This document shows, in pieces, positions 3,313 to 14,495 of a DNA stretch of 64,000 nucleotides. The translations under genes were made by a program, and so were the position numbers. The notes beneath the pieces were generated by a model. The model was not told the DNA's origin and made no database searches. It worked only from the letters and a program-made list of their open reading frames with translations. This stretch comes from Cystobasidiopsis lactophilus (lineage: Eukaryota > Basidiomycota > Agaricostilbomycetes > Agaricostilbales > Chionosphaeraceae). The DNA is taken from the NCBI GenBank assembly GCA_001599975.1, contig BCIO01000002.1:1054001-1118000 (forward strand). Reading direction: 5' to 3'. The first letter of the stretch is position 1. Each line of letters starts with the position of its first letter.

Positions 3313-6300
3313 ATGGCTTCGGCGGCAGGCTACGGCTCGCCGGATGATTGGTGCAACTCATTCTGGAGCGTTGACGATGCCGGAGTGGAGGTGGTGCTCA
3401 GCCGGCTCAAGAATGGGTCCAAGACGCTGGACGATTTGCGGGCTTTTTATAAAGAGAGGCGAGTGGCGGCCTCATGGCTTGGTCTTGGACCTCTCTGATG
3501 GTTCACACAGGGCCAGCATCGAGGAGGAGTACGCTAGGAAGCTGGGCCGCCTGGCAAAGCAGCAACTCGGGCGAGATGAGACGGGGTGCGGCAGCCACTT
3601 CCCCTTGGCTCGTCATATCCACCAGGCTAACGACTGCGTCTTCGGAGCACAGCACCACCAAGCAGGCCTTGGACCGGGTCAGGGGAGAGCTCGCTAACCA
3701 GTCGGACGCTCACGAGAAGCTGGCATCGTATGTTGCTCACCGCTTTGTTTGTTTGTGCGCTCACCTTGCCCGGCGTCGCTCTCAGGATGGTCCGCCAATC
3801 GCTCGAGCACAAAGTGCGCGAGTTTGAAAATGTCAGGGAGTCCAAGAAGCGCAACGTAAGAGCACTTCGCCCCTCCCGAATTCGCATTTGTTGACGCTGG
3901 GCAAACGCACAGCCTCAAGCGGCGATTGAGAAGGCGCTCAAGACCAAGCAGCAGCAAGAGAATATGGTCAATAAGGTCTCTTTCTGCTTCTATCATGGTT
4001 CCTCGTGAATACGTGTTGACGTGGAAGGGAAACAGGCCCGAGAGAAGTACAAGGTGGACTGCATCGCCATCAATGGCTACACGGCCCAGACGTCGCTGGT
4101 GCAAGGGCGGGATCTCGACAAAGTGTCGGCCAAACTGGACAAAGCCCAGGCCACCATTCAGGTCAACGAGCGCGAGTACAAGTCTTACCTCGCCGCTTTG
4201 AAGGAAACCACCGGCAAGTGGAACCTCGACTGGAAGACCTTCTCCGACCTGGCCCAGGATCTGGAAGAGGAGCGCCTCAACTTCTTGCGCATCTCCTTGT
4301 GGGAGTACGCGAACGGCGTCAGCTTCATTTGTGTCACCGACGACGAGGTGCGCTCTTTGACTTCCACTCAAAGTCATCGTAATCCTCTCTGACGTCCAGG
4401 CTCTGATGCGTATAGTTCTGCGAGAATGTCCGCAAGTCGCTGGAGCAGTGCGACGCCACGGGCGATCTGGCCGACTTTGTCAAGCGCAATGCCACCGGCC
4501 CTCGCATCCCTGACCCGCCCACTTTCGTCAATTATGCGGCCGGCGATGGCGCCGCGCCCAGGCAAACCTTCAAGACCGCCAACTTTGCCCGCTCCTCCGC
4601 CCGGACCGAGATTGTGCACACCGGCCAGTCGCTGCAAGACCTCGCCAGCTCCATCAAGCCCTCCACGGTTCCTCCCATGGCGGACCCGAACCAGCAGCAG
4701 CAGCGCAGCCGGCCGCAATCTCAAGTGGAGCCTTCCAGGAGCAGGTCCAACTCGCGGCCGCGCCAGGATTCCGAGCCGAGCGCACCCACTTCGCGAAGCA
4801 TTACGCCCAACCCCCCGCCCAACTCGGAGTACAGCACCTACAAACCTGACCCCATCACTGTCCCTCCTCCTACTTCTTTCACGACCCATAATCGAGCAGA
4901 GGAATCCCCGGCGGCTTCGACCAGCTCTCCCCGCGACGCGGGTGGCTTCCAGCAGCAGCAGCAACAGCCTCCCGCTCCTCCTAAATCTGCCATGAAGTCC
5001 CCTGGCTCTTCTTCAGTTGGCACACCGTCCACACCTACGCAGAAGCAGGACCCCATCGCTGCCGCCTTGGCCGCGCTCCGGGATCCGAACAGGGCGTCGG
5101 AAGTGGCGGAGCGCCTGCCCATCTCCAACAAGACGATCGACCGGCAGAAGTCGCAGTCCCAGCGCTCGTCTTACTCTGCAGAGCCTCAGGGTCCCGGACC
5201 CGTGTCAAGAAGGAACACCGCTGGCGACCTCTACCAGCAGGGCCAGCAACAGCAGCAGCCTTCCCAGCCCCAGCCCGGGAGGAATCAGCAGTCCCGCCAG
5301 TCTTACGTCGAGCCCTCCAGACCAACCTATGAGCAGCACCAGTCGCAATATGGCGGTCGCTCCCGGCCCGTCTCGCCAGCCCCGTCAAGCGGGCGGCCGG
5401 TCTCCCCAGCTATGCGGCCCGGCTCTTCTGCTGGCCAGAATGCCGCCATGAACCCTCAGGTTATGCACAACAACTACCAGCAGCCTTACCACGGCGACCA
5501 GCGAAGTCGGTCTAGGGCCAACTCGGTCGCTTCGCAGCACACTGGCCACACCCACCTCACCCAAAACATCCCCATCATGCAAGAGCAGCCTCAAGGTGCC
5601 CAAGCCGCCTATGAGCGAGCCAGTAACGCCAGCCCGCATCCATACCAGGGCAACCTGCAACAGGGGAAGCATTTTCAGCAGTCCACCAGGCCAATCTCGC
5701 CTCGACCCGGTGCTTCGCCAACGCCTTATACCGAGAACCGATACGCGCCCGCTGCCTCTCAGCAACAGCAGCAACCTCTTCCGGCGCAACGGCAGCCTAG
5801 CATGCCAAACCATGGCCATCAGCAATCGCAGTCCTCTCTGCGGCCAACCTCGCCAGCTGGCCCGCCGGTGCAGCAACAGCAACCCCCAGTCCCAGACTAC
5901 ACTAGGCCTACCTCTGCTTTTGGCTATCATCAGCAACAGCAGCAGCCCGGCCCTCCACAGCAGCAAATGCAGCCTCAGCATCAGCCAAGTCTGCCGCCGC
6001 AGCAACAAGGTCCGATTCCTCAACAGCAACAGCGCCAGCAATCCATCGACTATCGCCCTGGCGGCGGCACCCCCATGTCCCCCATGTATACGCCACAGCA
6101 GCAGCAAGGACAGCAGCTAACACCGGCGCAGCTGTATGCTCAGCAGGCTCAAGCTCAAGGCGGCGGCTCTCCTGCGCCGCAGCAGGCCCAGAACCTCTAT
6201 CGGTCACCGAGCGCCCACGACTTGGCTTATCAACAGCAACAGCAACCCATGTATAATGGGGCTCCTGGGTCGCTCAACCAGTTCCCGCAACAGGGCCAGC

Positions 6301-6749
6301 CGCCGTATCAGCAGCAGGCAACGCCTCAGCAGATGCGCTCTCCCTCGCCCGCGCCTCAGGCTCAAATGCCTGTCTCCCAATCTCAACCAATGTTGGGGCC
6401 CCAGTCATCGCGAAATGGGCAAGCTCAAGGGCGGCCGGTTCTCTTCTTTGGTGAGCATTTGGCTTTTCCTCTTCGCCTCCAATTCCTTATGACATGGCGG
6501 TCCAGTACGAGCCATGTACGATTATCAAGCGCAAATACCCGAAGAGTTCTCGTTCCAAGCCAACGACATCATCGCCGTGTTTGTGACCGACCCAGACGGC
6601 TGGTGGACGGGCGAGCTGCTGGACGAGGAGCGAAGGCAGCTGGGTGGTAACATCTTCCCTTCTAATTTCTGGTGAGTGATATCGTGGCCCCTTCGATTGC
6701 TTGGAGGACTTGCTCACACCTACACTCTCACAGCACGCTGTTGGAGTAG
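3313..6749 (+). CDS. F-BAR and SH3 domain protein, Cdc15/Imp2/Hof1 family
   Basis: Predicted membrane-curving scaffold of the cytokinetic ring. Residues 1 to about 260 form an F-BAR domain (DDLRAFYKERASIEEEYARK is the signature, then VRQSLEHKVREFENVRESKK and WNLDWKTFSDLAQDLEEER), split over about six exons. A middle region of about 680 residues, in one exon from 4413, is disordered and rich in Gln, Pro and Ser with many CAG/CAA runs. The C-terminus is one SH3 domain: ALYDY-type start AMYDYQAQ, then DGWWTGEL and GNIFPSNF. The single C-terminal SH3 fits Cdc15/Imp2/Hof1 rather than Bzz1, which has two. The ATG at 3313 is the first in frame. The first intron (3459-3510) is GC-AG. The second, near 3580-3620, would be only about 40 nt and is less sure. 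Confidence 0.88.
3459..3510 (+). other. GC-AG intron in the F-BAR gene
   Basis: The exon ends ...AAAGAGAG and the intron opens GCGAGT and closes CACAG, 52 nt. Splicing here joins KER to ASIEEEYARK, the conserved F-BAR helix. The nearby GT (3463) leaves a phase that runs into TAG after about 12 codons with the same acceptor, and no other acceptor restores frame. The AG|GCGAGT context resembles known GC-AG donors. Confidence 0.75.
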
Positions 6750-6922: not shown

Positions 6923-9900
6923 TCAATTCGCTACCCCGTTGAACGTGATTTCTGATATCTTCACGTCGCTCGTTAGGATCAGGAGACTGGCCACCGTTTT
7001 GATGGTGAGTCGAACGGAGGAAGTCGTCACGCCTAGCGGGATCAACACAATGGTCGGCAGGCCGGTGGCCAAGAGAGGTCCAACCAATTGAGTCGAGCCG
7101 TCATCGAAGGTCTGAGAGAGACATGTAAGAACGGGTGCGAGTCTGGAAAAGAGTCCTAGCTTACGAGGTAGGAATCCAGGACCAGTGAGCCCAACAAGTT
7201 CAAGGGAGAGTAGATCTGGACGGATGTGATCGTCTGGAGAGATACACGAGGATTAGCCTAGAACGGGAGGATGCAAAGGAGCAGCACCAACCTTGTCGGT
7301 AGGGAAGTTGACCTCCACCCATGACCCCGCCGGCGTCGATGGGGTCCAGTATGTGGAATAAGACCCATCCATGATGTTGTTGGCGTCCAAAGATGTCGTC
7401 TTGTTCGAGGAACTGGCGAACCAAGTCACAGTCGGAGCCGCGGCTTTAGTGCTCGTTGTGGAAGATGCCTTTGTCGAAGTGGTGTCCACAGTCGAGCTCG
7501 GCTTGGAAGAGCTGGTGTCCACAGTCGAGCTCTTGGTCGACGAAGAGCTAGTGGTGGAGCTCGTGGCCTTGGAGGAGCTGGAACTGGAGCTCGATTTCGA
7601 GGAAGAAGAGGAGCTGGAACTGGAGCTCGATTTCGACGAAGAAGAGCTGCTGCTGCTGCTGCTGGCTTTTGAAGAGGAGGACGAGCTGCTGCTGCTCGAG
7701 GCCTTCGAGGAGGAAGACGAAGACGAGCTTGAAGAGGACGACGAGGCCTTAGATGACGAAGAACTGGAAGGAGTGCTGCTGGACGACGAAGACGAGGCCT
7801 TGGACGAGGAGGACGAGCTGGGAGCCACGCTGCTGCTGCTGCTGGCCTTGACTGAAGATGATGAGGAAGACGAGCTCATGACCGAGGATGAAGCGCCATC
7901 ATCACAGTTGGTCGCGGCGTGAGCGTCGTTCGTGTCTGGAACACACTGAGAGTAGAAAGAGCTGCTCGAAGAGCAGTAGTAGCCAGTGGTGCAGCAGGTG
8001 CTACCAGTCCAGCTTGATCCACCGCATTGGCCGTCTGAAGGGATGGCAGCCAAGGAATGAGTTCCGCAAATGATTGGTGAGGTCAGTGTAAACTCACAGG
8101 CAGGAGCAGGGCTGGAGCATGTGCAAGTGGAAGCAGGAGCAGTGCAAGAGCCATCACCAGAGCCGGGCAAGCATTGTGAGTAGAATGCGCTCTGCGGTCG
8201 CTGATTTGAGCCTCAGCTGAACTTGAAGTGCGGAGGGAGTGCTTACACCATAGGCACAGTAGTATCCAGCTGAGCAGCAGCTGCCGCCGGTCCAGCCTTG
8301 ACCGCCGCATTGGCCGTACTGCGCGCACCGGTAAGAAATCAGGGCATCAGATGCGGCATATCAGGCAACTTACGGCGGCCACCAAGCCAGTAGACGAGCA
8401 AGAGCCGCACGACGAGGCCGAAGCCGAGGCGCTGGCCGACGAGAGAGTAGACGACGAAGAGGTAGGCAGCGACGAAGTCGAGGACGCCATGGAGGAGGCA
8501 GATGAGTCCATCGTCGAGGACGCCATGGAGGAGGCAGATGAGTCCATCGTCGAGGCGGACGAGCTCTTGGCAGACGAAACCACCGAAGAGGACGCGGATG
8601 ATGCCTTCACTGAAGACGCGGACGAAGCCGAAGAAACGTTGGCCACGATTGACATACCCGAGGAAGGAAGCGCGACCGATCCGTAAGAGCTGGCGATGGA
8701 CGAAGGAGCACTGAAAGTACTGGTCAGAAGACATCTAAATGAGCATAATCAAAGACGAACGCAGAGGACACTCCAGACGAAGACCCGGCAGGGACGCCGA
8801 AAGCCATAAATTCAGCCAAACCGACATTGCCGGTGCTATCGCTGACGCTGGTGACAGTGAACAGCAGAGAAGTCGTGGTCCTCGCAGTGAAGTTGACACT
8901 GGTGGCTGATCCGTCGTTGTTGAGAGCGGGCACCGTGACAATCGAGCCATCACTGAACGTGAGGGTGCCGCCAGTGACCTGATCGGCCAAGTTGGGGCGG
9001 TCATACAGAGCAACAGAGTAGATAGTGTAAGCCTGGGTCCAGTTGAGCTGCAAGTAAGCGTTGGCGCCTTCGCCATCTGTGGCCCATTCCTTGCTCGAAT
9101 CGCCAGGGTAGCCGTCGGGGACGCCATCGATGGCAGCGCTGGCATCCTGGTTCGCGCCCGCATCCGGAGACGAGGCGGTCGCGGTCGCCAAGAGCGCGAC
9201 GTCGGCGTACTGGGCGACGGCCGCAGCGGAGGCGGAGGGCGCGGCCGAAGAGGCAGATCCAGAGGCCGAGCCCGCGAGGACGCCAAAAGCCATGAACTCA
9301 GAAAGACCGACGTTTCCAGTGGTGCTGCTGACTGCCGTGACGGTGAACAGAATGGAAGTGGTGGTGATCGCTGTGAAGTTGACTGCAGTCGCCGATCCGT
9401 CGTTGTTCAAAGCGCCGACCGTGACCGACGAGCCATCAGAGAAGGTGAGCTTGCCACCAGTCACTTGATCGTTGGTGTTCGGGCGATCGTAGAGCGCAAC
9501 CGAGTAGATCCTGTACGGCTGGGTCCAGGTGAGCTTGAGGGTGGCGCCAACACCTTCGCCGTCGGATGCCCATTCCTTGGTGTAGTCTCCAGGGTAACCA
9601 CCGACATTGCCATCGTTGGCCGCGCTGGCCGGTTGGCCACTGCTGGACGAAGAAGCGGAAGCCGTAGCGAGCAGAGCGACGTCCGCGAACGGGCCCGCGG
9701 CAGCTGATGCCGAAGCGCCAGAAGCGCTGGCGCTCTTGCTTGCAGAGGCAGAACCAGAGGAGCTGGCCGCAGCCACGCCGAAGACTTGCAACTCGGAGAG
9801 ACCGACGTTGCCGGTCGAGCTGCTGACGCTAACGACCAAGAACTTGAGCGAAGTGATGGTCTTGGGCGAGCCGATGGAGACAGCAGTAGCCGAGCCATCA

Positions 9901-12900
9901 TTGTTCAAAGCGCCAGTATTGACAGACGTGCCATCGCTGAAGCTTATCGTGGCGTTGGTGATTTGATCGTTAGTGTTGGGGCGATCATAAGCGGTGATGG
10001 AGTAGATGGTGTAAGGCTTCGACCAGGTGAGGGTCAAGTAAGCGCCAGCACCTTGGCCGTTGGAAGCCCACTCCTTGGTGTAATCGCCCGGGTAACCGCC
10101 AATGACGCCGTCGATGGCGGCGGTGGCAGGCTGACCAGACGAGGAGCTCGAGGCTGCGACAGTCGCCACCAAAGCAATGTCTGCATAAGAAGAAGCCGAG
10201 GCGCTGGGAACCGAGGACACCGTTGAGCTGGCCCCGCTAGCCGATGCAGATGAAGCGGCGACACCAAAGACCTGGAGCTCCGAAAGGCCTGCGTTGCCGG
10301 TTGAGCTGCTGACACTGACAACCAAGAACTTCAAGGACGTGATCGTCTTAGGCGATGCGAGCTTCACGGCAGTAGCTGATCCGTCGTTGTTCAGAGAGCC
10401 GGTGTTTACCGAGGTGCCGTCACTGAAGGAGATGGTGGCATTGGTGATCTGGTCGTTGGTGTTGGGGCGATCATAGGCAGTAATGGAATAGATTGTGTAG
10501 GGCTTGGACCAAGTGAGGGTCAAGTAAGCGCCCACGCCCTGACCATTAGAGGCCCACTCCTTGGTGTAGTCGCCAGGGTAGCCGTCAATCACACCGTCGA
10601 TCGCAGCGCTGGCTGGCTGGCCTGAAGACGCGCTGGAAGCGGCAGCAGTGGCCAACAAAGCGACGTCAGCGTAGGAAGAGGCCGATGCGGCGGGAGCCGA
10701 CGAAACGGTGGAGGATCCACTGGCAGACGAAGAGGAGGCTGCAACGCCAAAGACTTGAATTTCCGAAAGGCCGACGTTGCCGGTGGATGCGCTGACGCTG
10801 GTCACCACGAACTTCAACGTGGTGATAGTGCGAGGGGTGATCGACACTGCGGTGGCTGAGCCGTCGTTGTTCAAGGCGCCAGTGTTCACGGTCGTGCCAT
10901 CGCTGAAAGTAATCGTCGCACCAGTGACCTGATCGTTCGTGTTGGGTCTATCAAAAAGCTGTTGTGCACAAACAATTAGGACCAAGTCTTTAAGTGGGCG
11001 CAGCACGGAAACTCACAGCGATGGAATAGATGGTGTAAGGCTTCGACCAAGTCAACGTGAGGGTAGCACCAATGCCTTGGCCGTTGGACGCCCATTCCTT
11101 GGTGTAGTCGCCAGGATAGCCGTCCGTGACGCCGTCAATGGCCGCGCTGGGTGGTTGGCCAGACGAATAGCTGGAAGCGGTGGCAGTGGCCAACAACGCG
11201 ATATCGGCATAAGACGAGCTCGAAGCGCTAGGAGCAGAGGAAGAAGCCGTGGAGGACGCAATGGACGAGGAAGTGGCGGACACTGTAGGGCAGGCCGCGG
11301 CGCCCCTCAGGTACACCTGAATCTCACCAAGACCGGCATTGGTGGTAAGGTAGCTGACCGAAGTGACGGTGAATTTGACGGTAAGAGACGAGACGGTGGC
11401 GCCCAAAGGAACAACTGTCGCTGAGCCATCGTTGTTGAGCGGTCCGGTCGAGTAAGTTTTGCCGCCGATGGTGAGCGTGCCATTGGTGATCCAATCGTTC
11501 ATGTTTGGCCTGTCATAGAGCACAACAGTGTCGAACTAATTTGGAAGGCTTGAGGAAAATTCCAAAAAAGTGTCGAGAGCGCGAAAACTCACAGATTGCT
11601 TGGCAGTCCAGGTCAGAGTGAAGGTGGTGCCTGCAGTGCCGCCGTACGACACCCACTCCGCCGAGTTGTTGTAAGGGTAGCCCGAAGGGTTTCCATCAAT
11701 GGCCGCGTAAGTCGAGTAGCCCGGGTAGGTGGAGGACGCAGTAGGAACGGCTTTCAGCGCCAAGTTGGCAGTGCATGGGACGGTGGCGTTGTAGGTGGCA
11801 TTTCGATTGGTGTAAGTGACCGTCGTGTCCGAATTGGTCATCTTCAGGGCGTTGGTGACGACCCACTGGCGGGGCAGCCAATCCACTTCGGGGCGGCCGG
11901 CCTGCTTGCACGCGGCCAAGCTCTGGCACTCTTCGTTGTCATAAGCTGCGGGCCAGAAAGTCAGCATGGCCAAGTCACTGCGGGCAGTAAGATGTGCTCA
12001 CGAGTGTAAGTGAAGAAGGCATTTTGCTTGGTGGTCAAGCCGGAGCCCGCCACGTTGGTGGCGTACGAAGTGGCAGGGTAGCCCATGTAACCAGCAAACG
12101 TGCTAGGCGAGAAAGAGGCCTGCAGTCCGTTAACCATGCGAGCCGTAGTCTGATGATCGGGATGGTCGCCCGTGTTGTAGTCGGACAGGTAATCCAGGGT
12201 GGAGATCGCGGTGGCTTGGCGGGCGGCCATGATTTCGGCAAGAGCCTGCTGGAGGGTGGACAGAGTCCAAGTAGCAGTGCCAACAGTGTTGCTGATGGTC
12301 GAAATCGAGCCAGAGTACAGCTTGAGCAAACTCTGGGCGCCGGTGGAGGTGTAGCCATAGCCTTGCATGCCACCGTCCGGAAGACGGAACCACTGAGGTT
12401 TGCTTCTTCAGAACACCCATTACGAAGGTAGGTAGTATTGGAGCTCACCACTCGCTGGATCGTGGGCATGCCAGTCAAAGTTCGGATGAGAACAGGCTGT
12501 CCCGCCAAAGTGGCGTTGACTTCGGTCCCTGTTTATAAACCCAACAACTTAACATCGAGATGGTGACAAAAGCGATAAGGTAGAGAAGGACGAACAGGAG
12601 TCGGTGACACCAGCCATGTAGGCGTAAGCCGCTTCATTACCAGCCTCACGGCTCGCGGGGTAGGTTCCCGGCAAACCAGCATCACCAGACGTCGTGAAAA
12701 CAGTCTGTTCAAAGCGAAAGATGTATACATGAGCGATGTGAAAGCCATGGTTTGGCACCAGAGGAACACTGACAGTCAGACAGCTCGACGCAGACACGTA
12801 GTTCTGCACGGCGGGCGATTGGAAGAGCAGGTCGTCATCTAGAGTAAGGGCACACCAAGTCGAGAGTAAGATTGGTGGCCCTTAAGTATGACGACGGCGG

Positions 12901-13031
12901 GCAGCAGGCGGCGTACCTGGATGGGCAACAAAGGAGAGGAGACCGCCAGTGCAGGTGAAAGCCTGAGCTTGTACCCGCAGCACTTGCAAGGTGATCACCA
13001 CCAGCAGGGTGGTGAGGTAAGATTTCGCCAT
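6923..13031 (-). CDS. Secreted PIG-L-type deacetylase with discoidin-like repeats and two CBM1 modules
   Basis: Predicted extracellular zinc N-deacetylase carrying many binding modules, roughly 1,750 residues. The ATG at 13031 starts a signal peptide (MAKSYLTTLLVVITLQVL). A PIG-L/LmbE domain follows: zinc motif AHPDDD at residues 36-41 (split by an intron), TSGDAGLPGTYPASREAGNE, and the second metal motif GDHPDHQTT. Next come six tandem discoidin-like (F5/8C, DUF7402-like) modules between about 11790 and 8780, each with a DRPN..D motif and a LNNDGSAT motif. A Ser-rich linker leads to two fungal CBM1 modules (YGQCGGQGWTGGSCC, 8160-8318; DGQCGGSSWTGSTCC, 7935-8035). A poly-Ser linker and a divergent discoidin-like domain end at TGA 6923-6925. 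About 12 introns. The substrate is not shown; chitin or another N-acetylated glycan is an inference. Confidence 0.85.
7512..7900 (-). repeat. Poly-Ser/Lys low-complexity linker coding region
   Basis: On the minus strand this stretch encodes long Ser runs broken by KASS, KSSS and STVDTSSSK units. It links the second CBM1 to the last discoidin-like domain. On the plus strand the same bases read as an open Glu/Asp/Leu-rich frame, which I treat as the shadow of the Ser codons. Such linkers are normally O-mannosylated and extended. Confidence 0.7.
8477..8548 (-). repeat. Exact 36-bp tandem duplication in the first Ser-rich linker
   Basis: Two identical copies lie at 8477-8512 and 8513-8548, both in frame. 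Each encodes a 12-residue unit of the type TMDSSASSMASS in the linker before the first CBM1. The exact match suggests recent slippage and a length-variable site. Confidence 0.85.
8780..11790 (-). repeat. Six tandem discoidin-like module repeats inside the deacetylase gene
   Basis: Six copies of a module of about 135 residues run head to tail, with approximate spans 11310-11790, 10740-11220, 10260-10680, 9780-10190, 9285-9690 and 8790-9210. Shared blocks are YADVALLATA, IDGVxxGYPGDYTKEWAS, YTIYSI, YDRPNTNDQ, LNNDGSATAV and STGNVGLSE. Copies 2-6 are much more alike than copy 1, which has a divergent DRPNMNDWITNGTL segment and an extra intron. Short Ala/Ser spacers separate the copies. Confidence 0.85.
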
Positions 13032-13676
13032 GGTCCCAACTCTTGCAAGTCAGAGCCGGGCAGGGCAGAGGTCGCGGAGGTCGCTTCTTCTTGGACCAAT
13101 TAAATCAATAAAAAAGAGAGGACAGATGCAGCGTTTTGCATCAACAGTCGGGCAAGTCACAACGAGAAACAACAGATGGCAGTCCTGGCAAGATGATGGG
13201 GAGCCAGAAAGCCGTGCAGCTGGTGAGGAGGAAGGCGACCAAAGTTTACTCTGCGATCTGGCCGAACCTGCAAGCCGCCTTTGCACCGTGCGCTGACTTT
13301 TTTAAGGTACAAAGTTCTGCGGCTGCGAGCTGGGCAGGCATCGAGGGGCGCGTCGGGCACCATTCTTGGACGACGATTGCCAAAAGGAGGGTGGCGAGCG
13401 CCGTCGGATTTGGCAAAGGTCCCACTCGGCGCCGCCACCTCGTCGGGCCCTGGCTCGTCCATGCGTTCCTTTCTCGGCAGATGCTTGGGAGCACAAGCCC
13501 CCGAACTTGCCCTTGCCTGAACCTTGGCTGCGAGCGACACACGAAAGCTTTTTTTGGCTGGGACGACCTTTGCCTCGGACTCTGCCTGCCTTCTGCCTTG
13601 CCGGGCACCTAGGTTTTGCTCTCAAGCCATCAACCACACTCGTTTGAACACTCCGTCACTCTTTTAACAAGCAACA
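13032..13676. promoter_or_regulatory. Divergent promoter between two secreted-protein genes
   Basis: The 645 bases lie between the ATG of the deacetylase (minus) and that of a Cys-rich secreted protein (plus). No convincing gene is present here. The head-to-head arrangement of two exported products suggests coordinate control. No specific operator was identified. Confidence 0.5.
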
Positions 13677-14495
13677 ATGAAGCTCGCCGTCGCTCTTCCG
13701 CTGGCCCTCGCCATCGGCCAAGCGTCCGCCTGGTCCTTCCTAGGCAAGCCGGTCGCTGCCACCACCGTCCAGAAGAGGAGGATCACGGGCGAGAGCGAGG
13801 AGGACTTCAAGTATGACAAGCGGGAGATCGCTCACGGCGCTGAGCTCGACAAACGGGCTGGACTGGCCGACCTGCTCGGCAACGTCGTCTCCCAGCTCGG
13901 CGACGTTGGAGCTATCATCAGTGCAGTTGAGAACGGCGGCGGCGGAGGCTTGGCGTCCATCATCTCGGCTGCGAGGTCGGCGGCGCTTCACATTCCCACC
14001 GGCCAAAGTCGATCCCGGACGAAGGTCACAGCCCAGGCCTGCGCATCGCGTGCTGGCTTAGGAGGTTCTTGCGGCGGTTCCATCACGTCCTGCTGGTGCG
14101 TTCCCTCCTTCCCTTTCGTACGCTCTCTGAAAGTTCCCGGCTCACCCTTTTTGGCGGCGAACAGCGAAATCGGCCTTCTGTGCAATGCCGGAACGTGCAC
14201 CAACCTGTGCCCTCGCACGACTCTGCAGCCATACTGCCTCTCTGACTCCGACTGCGACGCCACCTTGGGCTACTCTTGCCTCAGCAACCAGTGCAAGCCT
14301 CCCGCCACCGCCGCCACCGTTACTGTTGGCTCCAAGTGCGACCAGGGCTCGGGCAACACTCTCTTCTGGTGCGTGGATCTTTTCACTGTCGTCTTTCTTT
14401 GTCTTCGCATGCTGACATAGGAGGTGGGGTGCTGCAGCCAAAAGGGATTGGCCGTCTGCTCCAGCGGGACCTGCGTGACTTGCTCGCTCCATTAG
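13677..14495 (+). CDS. Secreted cysteine-rich protein of unknown function
   Basis: The ATG at 13677 opens a clear signal peptide (MKLAVALPLALAIGQASAW). A pro-like segment with basic pairs follows (QKRR, DKRE, DKRAG), which look like Kex2-type sites. The rest has about 18 cysteines after splicing, with blocks such as CNAGTCTNLCP, CLSDSDCDATLGYSC, CCSQKGLAVCSSGTC and a C-terminal CVTCSLH. Two introns are placed, near 14097-14164 and 14373-14420. The second donor was chosen so that the reading keeps the CC and CxxC pattern up to TAG at 14493-14495. I do not recognise a named family. It could be a wall protein or an effector-like small secreted protein, and the divergent deacetylase supports an extracellular role. 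Confidence 0.7.

Follow-up and report, generated by a model that had tools for sequence, protein, structure and literature searches.

The DNA stretch studied here (the window) covers 64,000 nucleotides of contig BCIO01000002.1 of Cystobasidiopsis lactophilus (positions 1,054,001 to 1,118,000, forward strand). It contains a long minus-strand gene, which an earlier note, made from the letters alone, had described as a secreted PIG-L deacetylase joined to discoidin-like and CBM1 modules. Splicing yields one open frame that runs from the ATG at 13031 to the TGA at 6923, i.e., with the start, stop and strand that had been claimed. The initial splice model had 13 exons and 12 GT-AG introns for 1800 amino acids (aa), and the domains were already visible in it. 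However, this model carries 23 surplus residues inside the PIG-L domain with reference to two relatives, P0010 and P0009. Since these residues are missing from both, the segment 12773-12705 was taken as a further intron. Once it is spliced out, the PIG-L score (PF02585, cut-off 28.2 bits) increases from 31.1 to 50.2 bits, and the part of the profile that is covered extends from positions 70-125 (best stretch) to positions 1-125 of 129. Reading through the other 12 introns gives an in-frame stop in 9 of them and a frameshift in 2 more. The remaining one (8097-8035, 63 nucleotides) gives neither; a second gene of this genome has an intron that matches it in position and phase. From its letters, the gene is real, unusual and apparently complete. 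All coordinates are collected in Table 1.

The predicted protein starts with a signal-like stretch, recognised by eye, followed by a PIG-L domain containing the two expected metal motifs (AHPDDD and GDHPDHQ). The Pfam search proposed in the earlier note places this domain above the cut-off; its end was set by where the first module begins. The homology model of rat PIG-L has His49, Asp52 and His157 as zinc ligands, Asp51 as base, and Asp51 or His154 as acid (PMC4101496). H37, D40, H203, D39 and H200 are the positional equivalents of these rat residues, and all five are present. The nearest solved folds for the catalytic domain of a relative are BC1534 and diacetylchitobiose deacetylases. Among the latter, the Pyrococcus N,N'-diacetylchitobiose deacetylase (PDB 4xm2, 3wl3) is archaeal, shares 16-18% identity and is not known to carry binding modules. 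In Trichoderma reesei, two candidate N-acetylglucosaminyl-phosphatidylinositol de-N-acetylases are classed as CE14 in PMC3526510. When the N-terminal part or a single module was searched against PDB sequences, the matches were chiefly antibody chains and were treated as noise.

Downstream of the catalytic domain, the announced composition was recovered throughout: six tandem discoidin-like modules and a terminal one, two CBM1 and Ser-rich linkers. In the Pfam-A search of the 1800-aa protein, PF24135 (DUF7402) matches seven stretches with a total of 1015 bits, F5/8 type C being matched too. PF00734 (CBM_1) matches two stretches, with 41.2 bits for the whole protein (cut-off 20.6) and the conserved Cys pattern. 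These scores are far above the chance level. Module 7 appeared in the first Pfam table as F5_F8_type_C_2 or NADase_transloc; both assignments were rejected in view of its PF24135 score, i.e., it is a diverged DUF7402. The 1777-aa protein contains 12 N-glycosylation sequons. A glycosylphosphatidylinositol anchor is unlikely, since the C-terminus has no hydrophobic tail (by eye).

Table 1. Features of the PIG-L-DUF7402-CBM1 gene, in positions of the window; residues refer to the 1777-aa model
Feature	Position	Strand	Residues	Remarks
Whole coding gene	6923..13031	-	1-1777	14 exons; 13 introns, every one GT-AG; single frame
Exons 1-7	13031-12917, 12838-12774, 12704-12596, 12528-12449, 12392-12002, 11945-11593, 11535-11017	-
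Exons 8-14	10958-8761, 8710-8374, 8318-8247, 8191-8098, 8034-7292, 7233-7165, 7111-6923	-
Added intron	12705..12773	-		69 nucleotides, GT-AG, multiple of three, stop-free; absent from the 12-intron model
Signal-peptide-like start	12963..13031	-	1-23	cleavage near AQA; by eye
PIG-L / LmbE-like domain	11776..12938	-	32-~310	introns included; PF02585 match aa 32-210
Motif AHPDDD	12831..12926	-	36-41	interrupted by intron 1; H37 and D40 putative zinc ligands, D39 putative base
Motif GDHPDHQ	12150..12170	-	198-204	H200 putative acid, H203 putative zinc ligand
DUF7402 module 1	11308..11763	-	315-447
DUF7402 module 2	10743..11205	-	482-616
DUF7402 module 3	10260..10667	-	642-777	91% identity to module 4
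DUF7402 module 4	9774..10181	-	804-939
DUF7402 module 5	9279..9683	-	970-1104
DUF7402 module 6	8793..9203	-	1130-1266
Linker 1, Ser/Ala-rich	8416..8783	-	1270-1375	Ser 53/106; intron inside
CBM1 a	8171..8318	-	1390-1420	PF00734; intron-split; limits by eye
CBM1 b	7943..8098	-	1445-1475	PF00734; intron within first codon; limits by eye
Linker 2, Ser-rich	7439..7903	-	1489-1643	Ser 104/155
DUF7402 module 7, terminal	6935..7435	-	1645-1774	diverged; PF24135 46.5 bits (cut-off 27)

For the whole-protein search, 7991 candidates sharing most words with the query and having 0.55-1.75 times its length were scored, giving 53 matches. The best 39 of these 53 are fungal or without organism name: 37 carry genus names that we take to belong to Microbotryomycetes, and the other 2 are unnamed. 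A precomputed PIG-L is found in 38 of the 39, and the number of DUF7402 per protein ranges from 3 to 12. The motif AH[P/A/G]DDD occurs in 37 of them and HPDDD in 1 more, while P0036 seems to begin downstream of the motif; HxDH is found in all 39. Predicted PIG-L-DUF7402 arrays are thus common in Microbotryomycetes, e.g., P0001 of Sporobolomyces pararoseus, P0005 of Microbotryum saponariae and P0007 of Meredithblackwellia eburnea, which likewise have PIG-L followed by 3-12 DUF7402. Unlike the present protein, 38 of the 39 best matches have no CBM1 (precomputed Pfam).

The only CBM1-bearing protein among the 53 matches is P0009 of Pseudohyphozyma bogoriensis, whose database name, «Carbohydrate-Binding Module Family 1 protein», reflects the CBM1 alone. 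It has the same order as the present protein (PIG-L, five DUF7402, long linker, CBM1, linker, terminal DUF7402), and the combination is therefore not unique. It differs by (i) its single CBM1; (ii) the sequence flanking the CBM1; (iii) its place in the PIG-L tree. No precomputed CBM1 was found among the 58 matches of the N-terminal search, which was limited to proteins no longer than about 835 aa. When the CBM1 block served as query, 6 long proteins were obtained, all of them lacking PIG-L; as this search did not retrieve P0009, itself CBM1-bearing, it is no measure of the rarity of the combination. In the comparison reported in the Microbotryum genome paper (PMC4469406), CBM1 is missing from all Pucciniomycotina, R. 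glutinis excepted. The open-access literature, searched mostly as titles and abstract openings with few subscription journals, gave no description of the PIG-L-DUF7402-CBM1 architecture, no function for the secreted fungal PIG-L-DUF7402 proteins and no mention of DUF7402. The earlier note knew of no description of this combination, which holds for the literature searched but not for the databases, where P0009 is present. As far as searched, the fungal PIG-L-DUF7402 group is apparently undescribed.

The signal, the complete set of catalytic residues and the seven plus two modules are most naturally read as those of an exported enzyme equipped with numerous binding modules. The most likely explanation is a wall-bound de-N-acetylase of N-acetylglucosamine (GlcNAc) polymers or oligomers, kept on insoluble polysaccharide by its modules, to which we give a probability of about one half. 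The exported, wall-clinging deacetylase put forward at the outset stands as far as this composition goes; export, activity, the GlcNAc polymer or oligomer substrate and module binding are its predicted side. According to the proposed mechanism, the secreted PIG-L (LmbE-like) domain would act as a zinc de-N-acetylase on GlcNAc units in wall chitin or chitin fragments, and the array of weak sugar-binding modules would hold the enzyme on the insoluble polysaccharide. The DUF7402 modules would bind wall polysaccharide, possibly chitosan, i.e., the reaction product, and the CBM1 pair would add attachment to crystalline cellulose or chitin. Owing to the Ser-rich linkers, which are probably O-glycosylated, the catalytic head and its anchors would be able to contact different surfaces.

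The module folds suit this reading in part. The fold matches of a DUF7402 module from a relative are strong for solved CBM32s and comprise, among others, sugar-binding F-lectins and chitosan-binding modules. The CBM32-type chitosan-binding modules of Paenibacillus sp. IK-5 (4zxe, 4zz5) resemble it at the level of the fold and were not retrieved by the sequence profile. A profile of 12 modules matches 6 PDB sequences, namely those of the CBM32 of the C. perfringens hyaluronidase/O-GlcNAcase (a weak match, 2.3e-05), lectinolysin and CASPR2. A structure model of two modules of the present protein was of low confidence (mean predicted local distance difference test score 65.1), and its fold matches were not used.

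Several points weigh against a chitin-directed enzyme: (i) a polymer substrate does not follow from the fold, since PIG-L relatives also act on small glycosides; (ii) the same list of module folds includes factor VIII and APC10, which have no connection with the wall; (iii) no chitosan-binding module is among the 6 PDB sequences matched by the 12-module profile; (iv) CE4-type deacetylases (PF01522), which could do the same job, account for 11 exon-level matches in the genome (22.1 Mb, 8 contigs), five of these with E <1e-11; (v) CBM1 beside many AA9 and AA14 matches points to plant cellulose as readily as to chitin. The modules and linkers downstream of the catalytic domain represent 83% of the chain, as would suit a protein that is chiefly an adhesin or matrix component with a relic enzyme domain. 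Against this, the present protein and almost all of the 39 best matches retain the catalytic residues, and such a role is very improbable.

Exon-level matches in the genome amount to 21 for AA9 and 13 for AA14 lytic polysaccharide monooxygenases (LPMOs) and to 10 for glyoxal oxidase. Considering these together with the CE4-type matches, the partner of the CBM1 pair may be cellulose or the fungus's own chitin. No match to GH6 or GH7 was found, but the search controls were silent too, and their absence is not claimed. In a separate observation, AA9 exon matches are clustered within 9 kb (G000:C1:4434751-4443419). An enzyme of the plant wall would take a GlcNAc-bearing or otherwise acetylated substrate in decaying plants, the CBM1 tethering it to cellulose beside oxidative enzymes. 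CBM1 classically binds cellulose, the genome has the LPMO matches just given, and DUF7402 is joined both to glyoxal oxidase and to AA14. On the other side stand the silence on GH6 and GH7, within the limit stated, and the nature of PIG-L enzymes, which are amidases of GlcNAc-type substrates, scarce in plant walls. This explanation is possible, and held only tentatively.

The partners of DUF7402 were seen at two loci of the same genome. About four DUF7402 followed by glyoxal oxidase matches lie on the same strand, apparently fused, at L014 (G000:C6:1742100-1746235), and one DUF7402 is followed in the same manner by glyoxal oxidase match(es) at L015 (G000:C1:4594062-4595548). This combination is not known to have been described. 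In Microbotryomycetes, three DUF7402 stretches follow the AA14 LPMO domain of P0048, and four that of P0049. The junctions with glyoxal oxidase in the own genome and with AA14 in relatives suggest that DUF7402 is an unnamed carbohydrate-binding module.

The PIG-L tree contains 92 rows (96 domain matches, minus 5 too short, plus the present protein) and is rooted at its midpoint. A group of 48 rows has a support of 100: 40 basidiomycete proteins, 1 chytrid protein, 6 without organism name and the present protein. It sits among bacterial and taxon-less rows, close to a Modestobacter protein. The same PIG-L plus DUF7402 pair is found in actinobacteria, i.e., in P0057 (Arthrobacter), P0060 (Frigoribacterium) and P0065 (Modestobacter), with 37-41% identity across 91-93% of the N-terminal 478 aa; these have 2-3 modules and no CBM1 (precomputed Pfam). 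The tree is compatible with a transfer from bacteria to fungi without proving it, the neighbours being mostly taxon-less and the root a midpoint. Two Aspergillus rows are placed elsewhere. An approximately unbiased (AU) test, from which 26 of the 92 rows were dropped (5 long-branched or their kin, 21 near relatives), gives no decision between a single origin for all fungi including Aspergillus and two transfers (p 0.327).

Such a position would also suit a PIG-L enzyme directed at the glycans of other organisms or at soluble ones (bacterial wall fragments, GlcNAc glycosides), with modules that only retain it at the cell surface. Among the matches of the family profile is MshB, an enzyme with a small glycoside as substrate. 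Nothing points to a bacterial target, however, and the closest catalytic folds include chitobiose deacetylases; such a target is unlikely.

Within the 48 rows, a 44-row subset (support 98/97), mostly Microbotryomycetes plus Saitozyma, the chytrid and taxon-less rows, excludes the present protein, which pairs with P0073 (92/64) near P0074 and P0078. The source fungus is accordingly placed close to Microbotryomycetes, but perhaps not within them. The last two, which are metagenomic, are the sequences nearest to the present PIG-L. Their alignment stops just past the site of intron 5 (12001-11946) and continues with unrelated letters; they are therefore likely to be unspliced fungal genes that have an intron at this site. 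In the own genome, the PIG-L profile gave no match, probably because the exons are short, while the protein query gave five exon matches, all in the present gene.

The five exon-level CBM1 matches of the genome fall in two genes. The second gene (about G000:C2:3508564-3510540; L016 2565-4540) lies 2.4 Mb away on the same contig. Its product begins with a signal-like stretch and contains three CBM1 as well as Thr-rich linkers; the C-terminal part belongs to no recognised family. The first two CBM1 of this gene have three intron positions in common with CBM1 a and b (phases 0, 0 and 1), and QCVPDxNDAHAATNCD is common to both (15/16 identical). The DNA identity is 67% over 353 columns. The first two CBM1 of this predicted gene are homologous to the present CBM1 block. 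An additional intron lies within its second CBM1. Given the poor alignment between the introns themselves, the duplication is not a recent one.

This resemblance to part of a separate gene could also suggest that two adjacent genes, one with PIG-L-DUF7402 and the other with CBM1, were wrongly merged here. The unbroken frame and normal introns, the same order in P0009 of another fungus, and a terminal module that follows a long linker within one predicted protein in six relatives (P0001, P0004, P0006, P0009, P0013 and P0021) make this hardly credible. On the best tree, at least two CBM1 changes (present protein and P0009) are needed over 40 scored rows; the other 13 of the 53 did not enter the count, 5 as outgroup and 8 as partial or short sequences. 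The two proteins are united in 0% of 200 bootstrap trees, but the test does not reject a tree in which they are forced into one clade (p 0.084 and 0.226).

Of 94 modules extracted from 18 proteins, 65, belonging to 11 proteins, were placed on a tree to follow the growth of the array. Modules 2-6 of the present protein form one group (support 96). Module 1 belongs to a group of 12 rows (93), together with first modules from other species and modules 3, 5 and 7 of P0007. A further group (98) unites the terminal modules of P0001, P0004, P0006 and P0009. Module 7 has a long branch outside it; its BLASTP matches lie at the ends of all 6 relatives tested, the best being P0021 (34% identity, E 2.7e-11). 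The middle modules of several relatives likewise cluster by protein, with exceptions. From these groupings, the end slots look old, whereas the middle, i.e., modules 2-6 here, looks multiplied or homogenised within the lineage. New here are this apparent multiplication, the introns that the CBM1 block shares with L016, and glyoxal oxidase and AA14 as predicted partners of DUF7402.

The divergent neighbour (13668-14420, plus strand) gives a small protein with a signal-like start, and its frame has no Pfam match; its Lys-Arg sites resemble those of Kex2 processing. The convergent neighbour (4416-6675, plus strand) shows a Gln-rich frame and then an SH3-like stretch at 6493-6675 (by eye); the frame 4416-6647 has no Pfam match.

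A wider proposal, speculative and rather unlikely as a whole, would make DUF7402 an unrecognised carbohydrate-binding family that entered fungi from bacteria with PIG-L and spread to LPMOs and glyoxal oxidases. Its arrays would bind the glucosamine product, and the deacetylase would localise itself by building chitosan patches and staying there, with the array length set per lineage by tandem multiplication. If a member of the group proves active, the secreted GlcNAc deacetylases of fungi would comprise another type besides the CE4 chitin deacetylases, and in DUF7402 there would be a new sugar-binding module open to test. The gene illustrates how a multi-module wall enzyme may be assembled, with fixed-looking ends, a multiplying middle and a CBM1 cassette that shares its introns with another gene.
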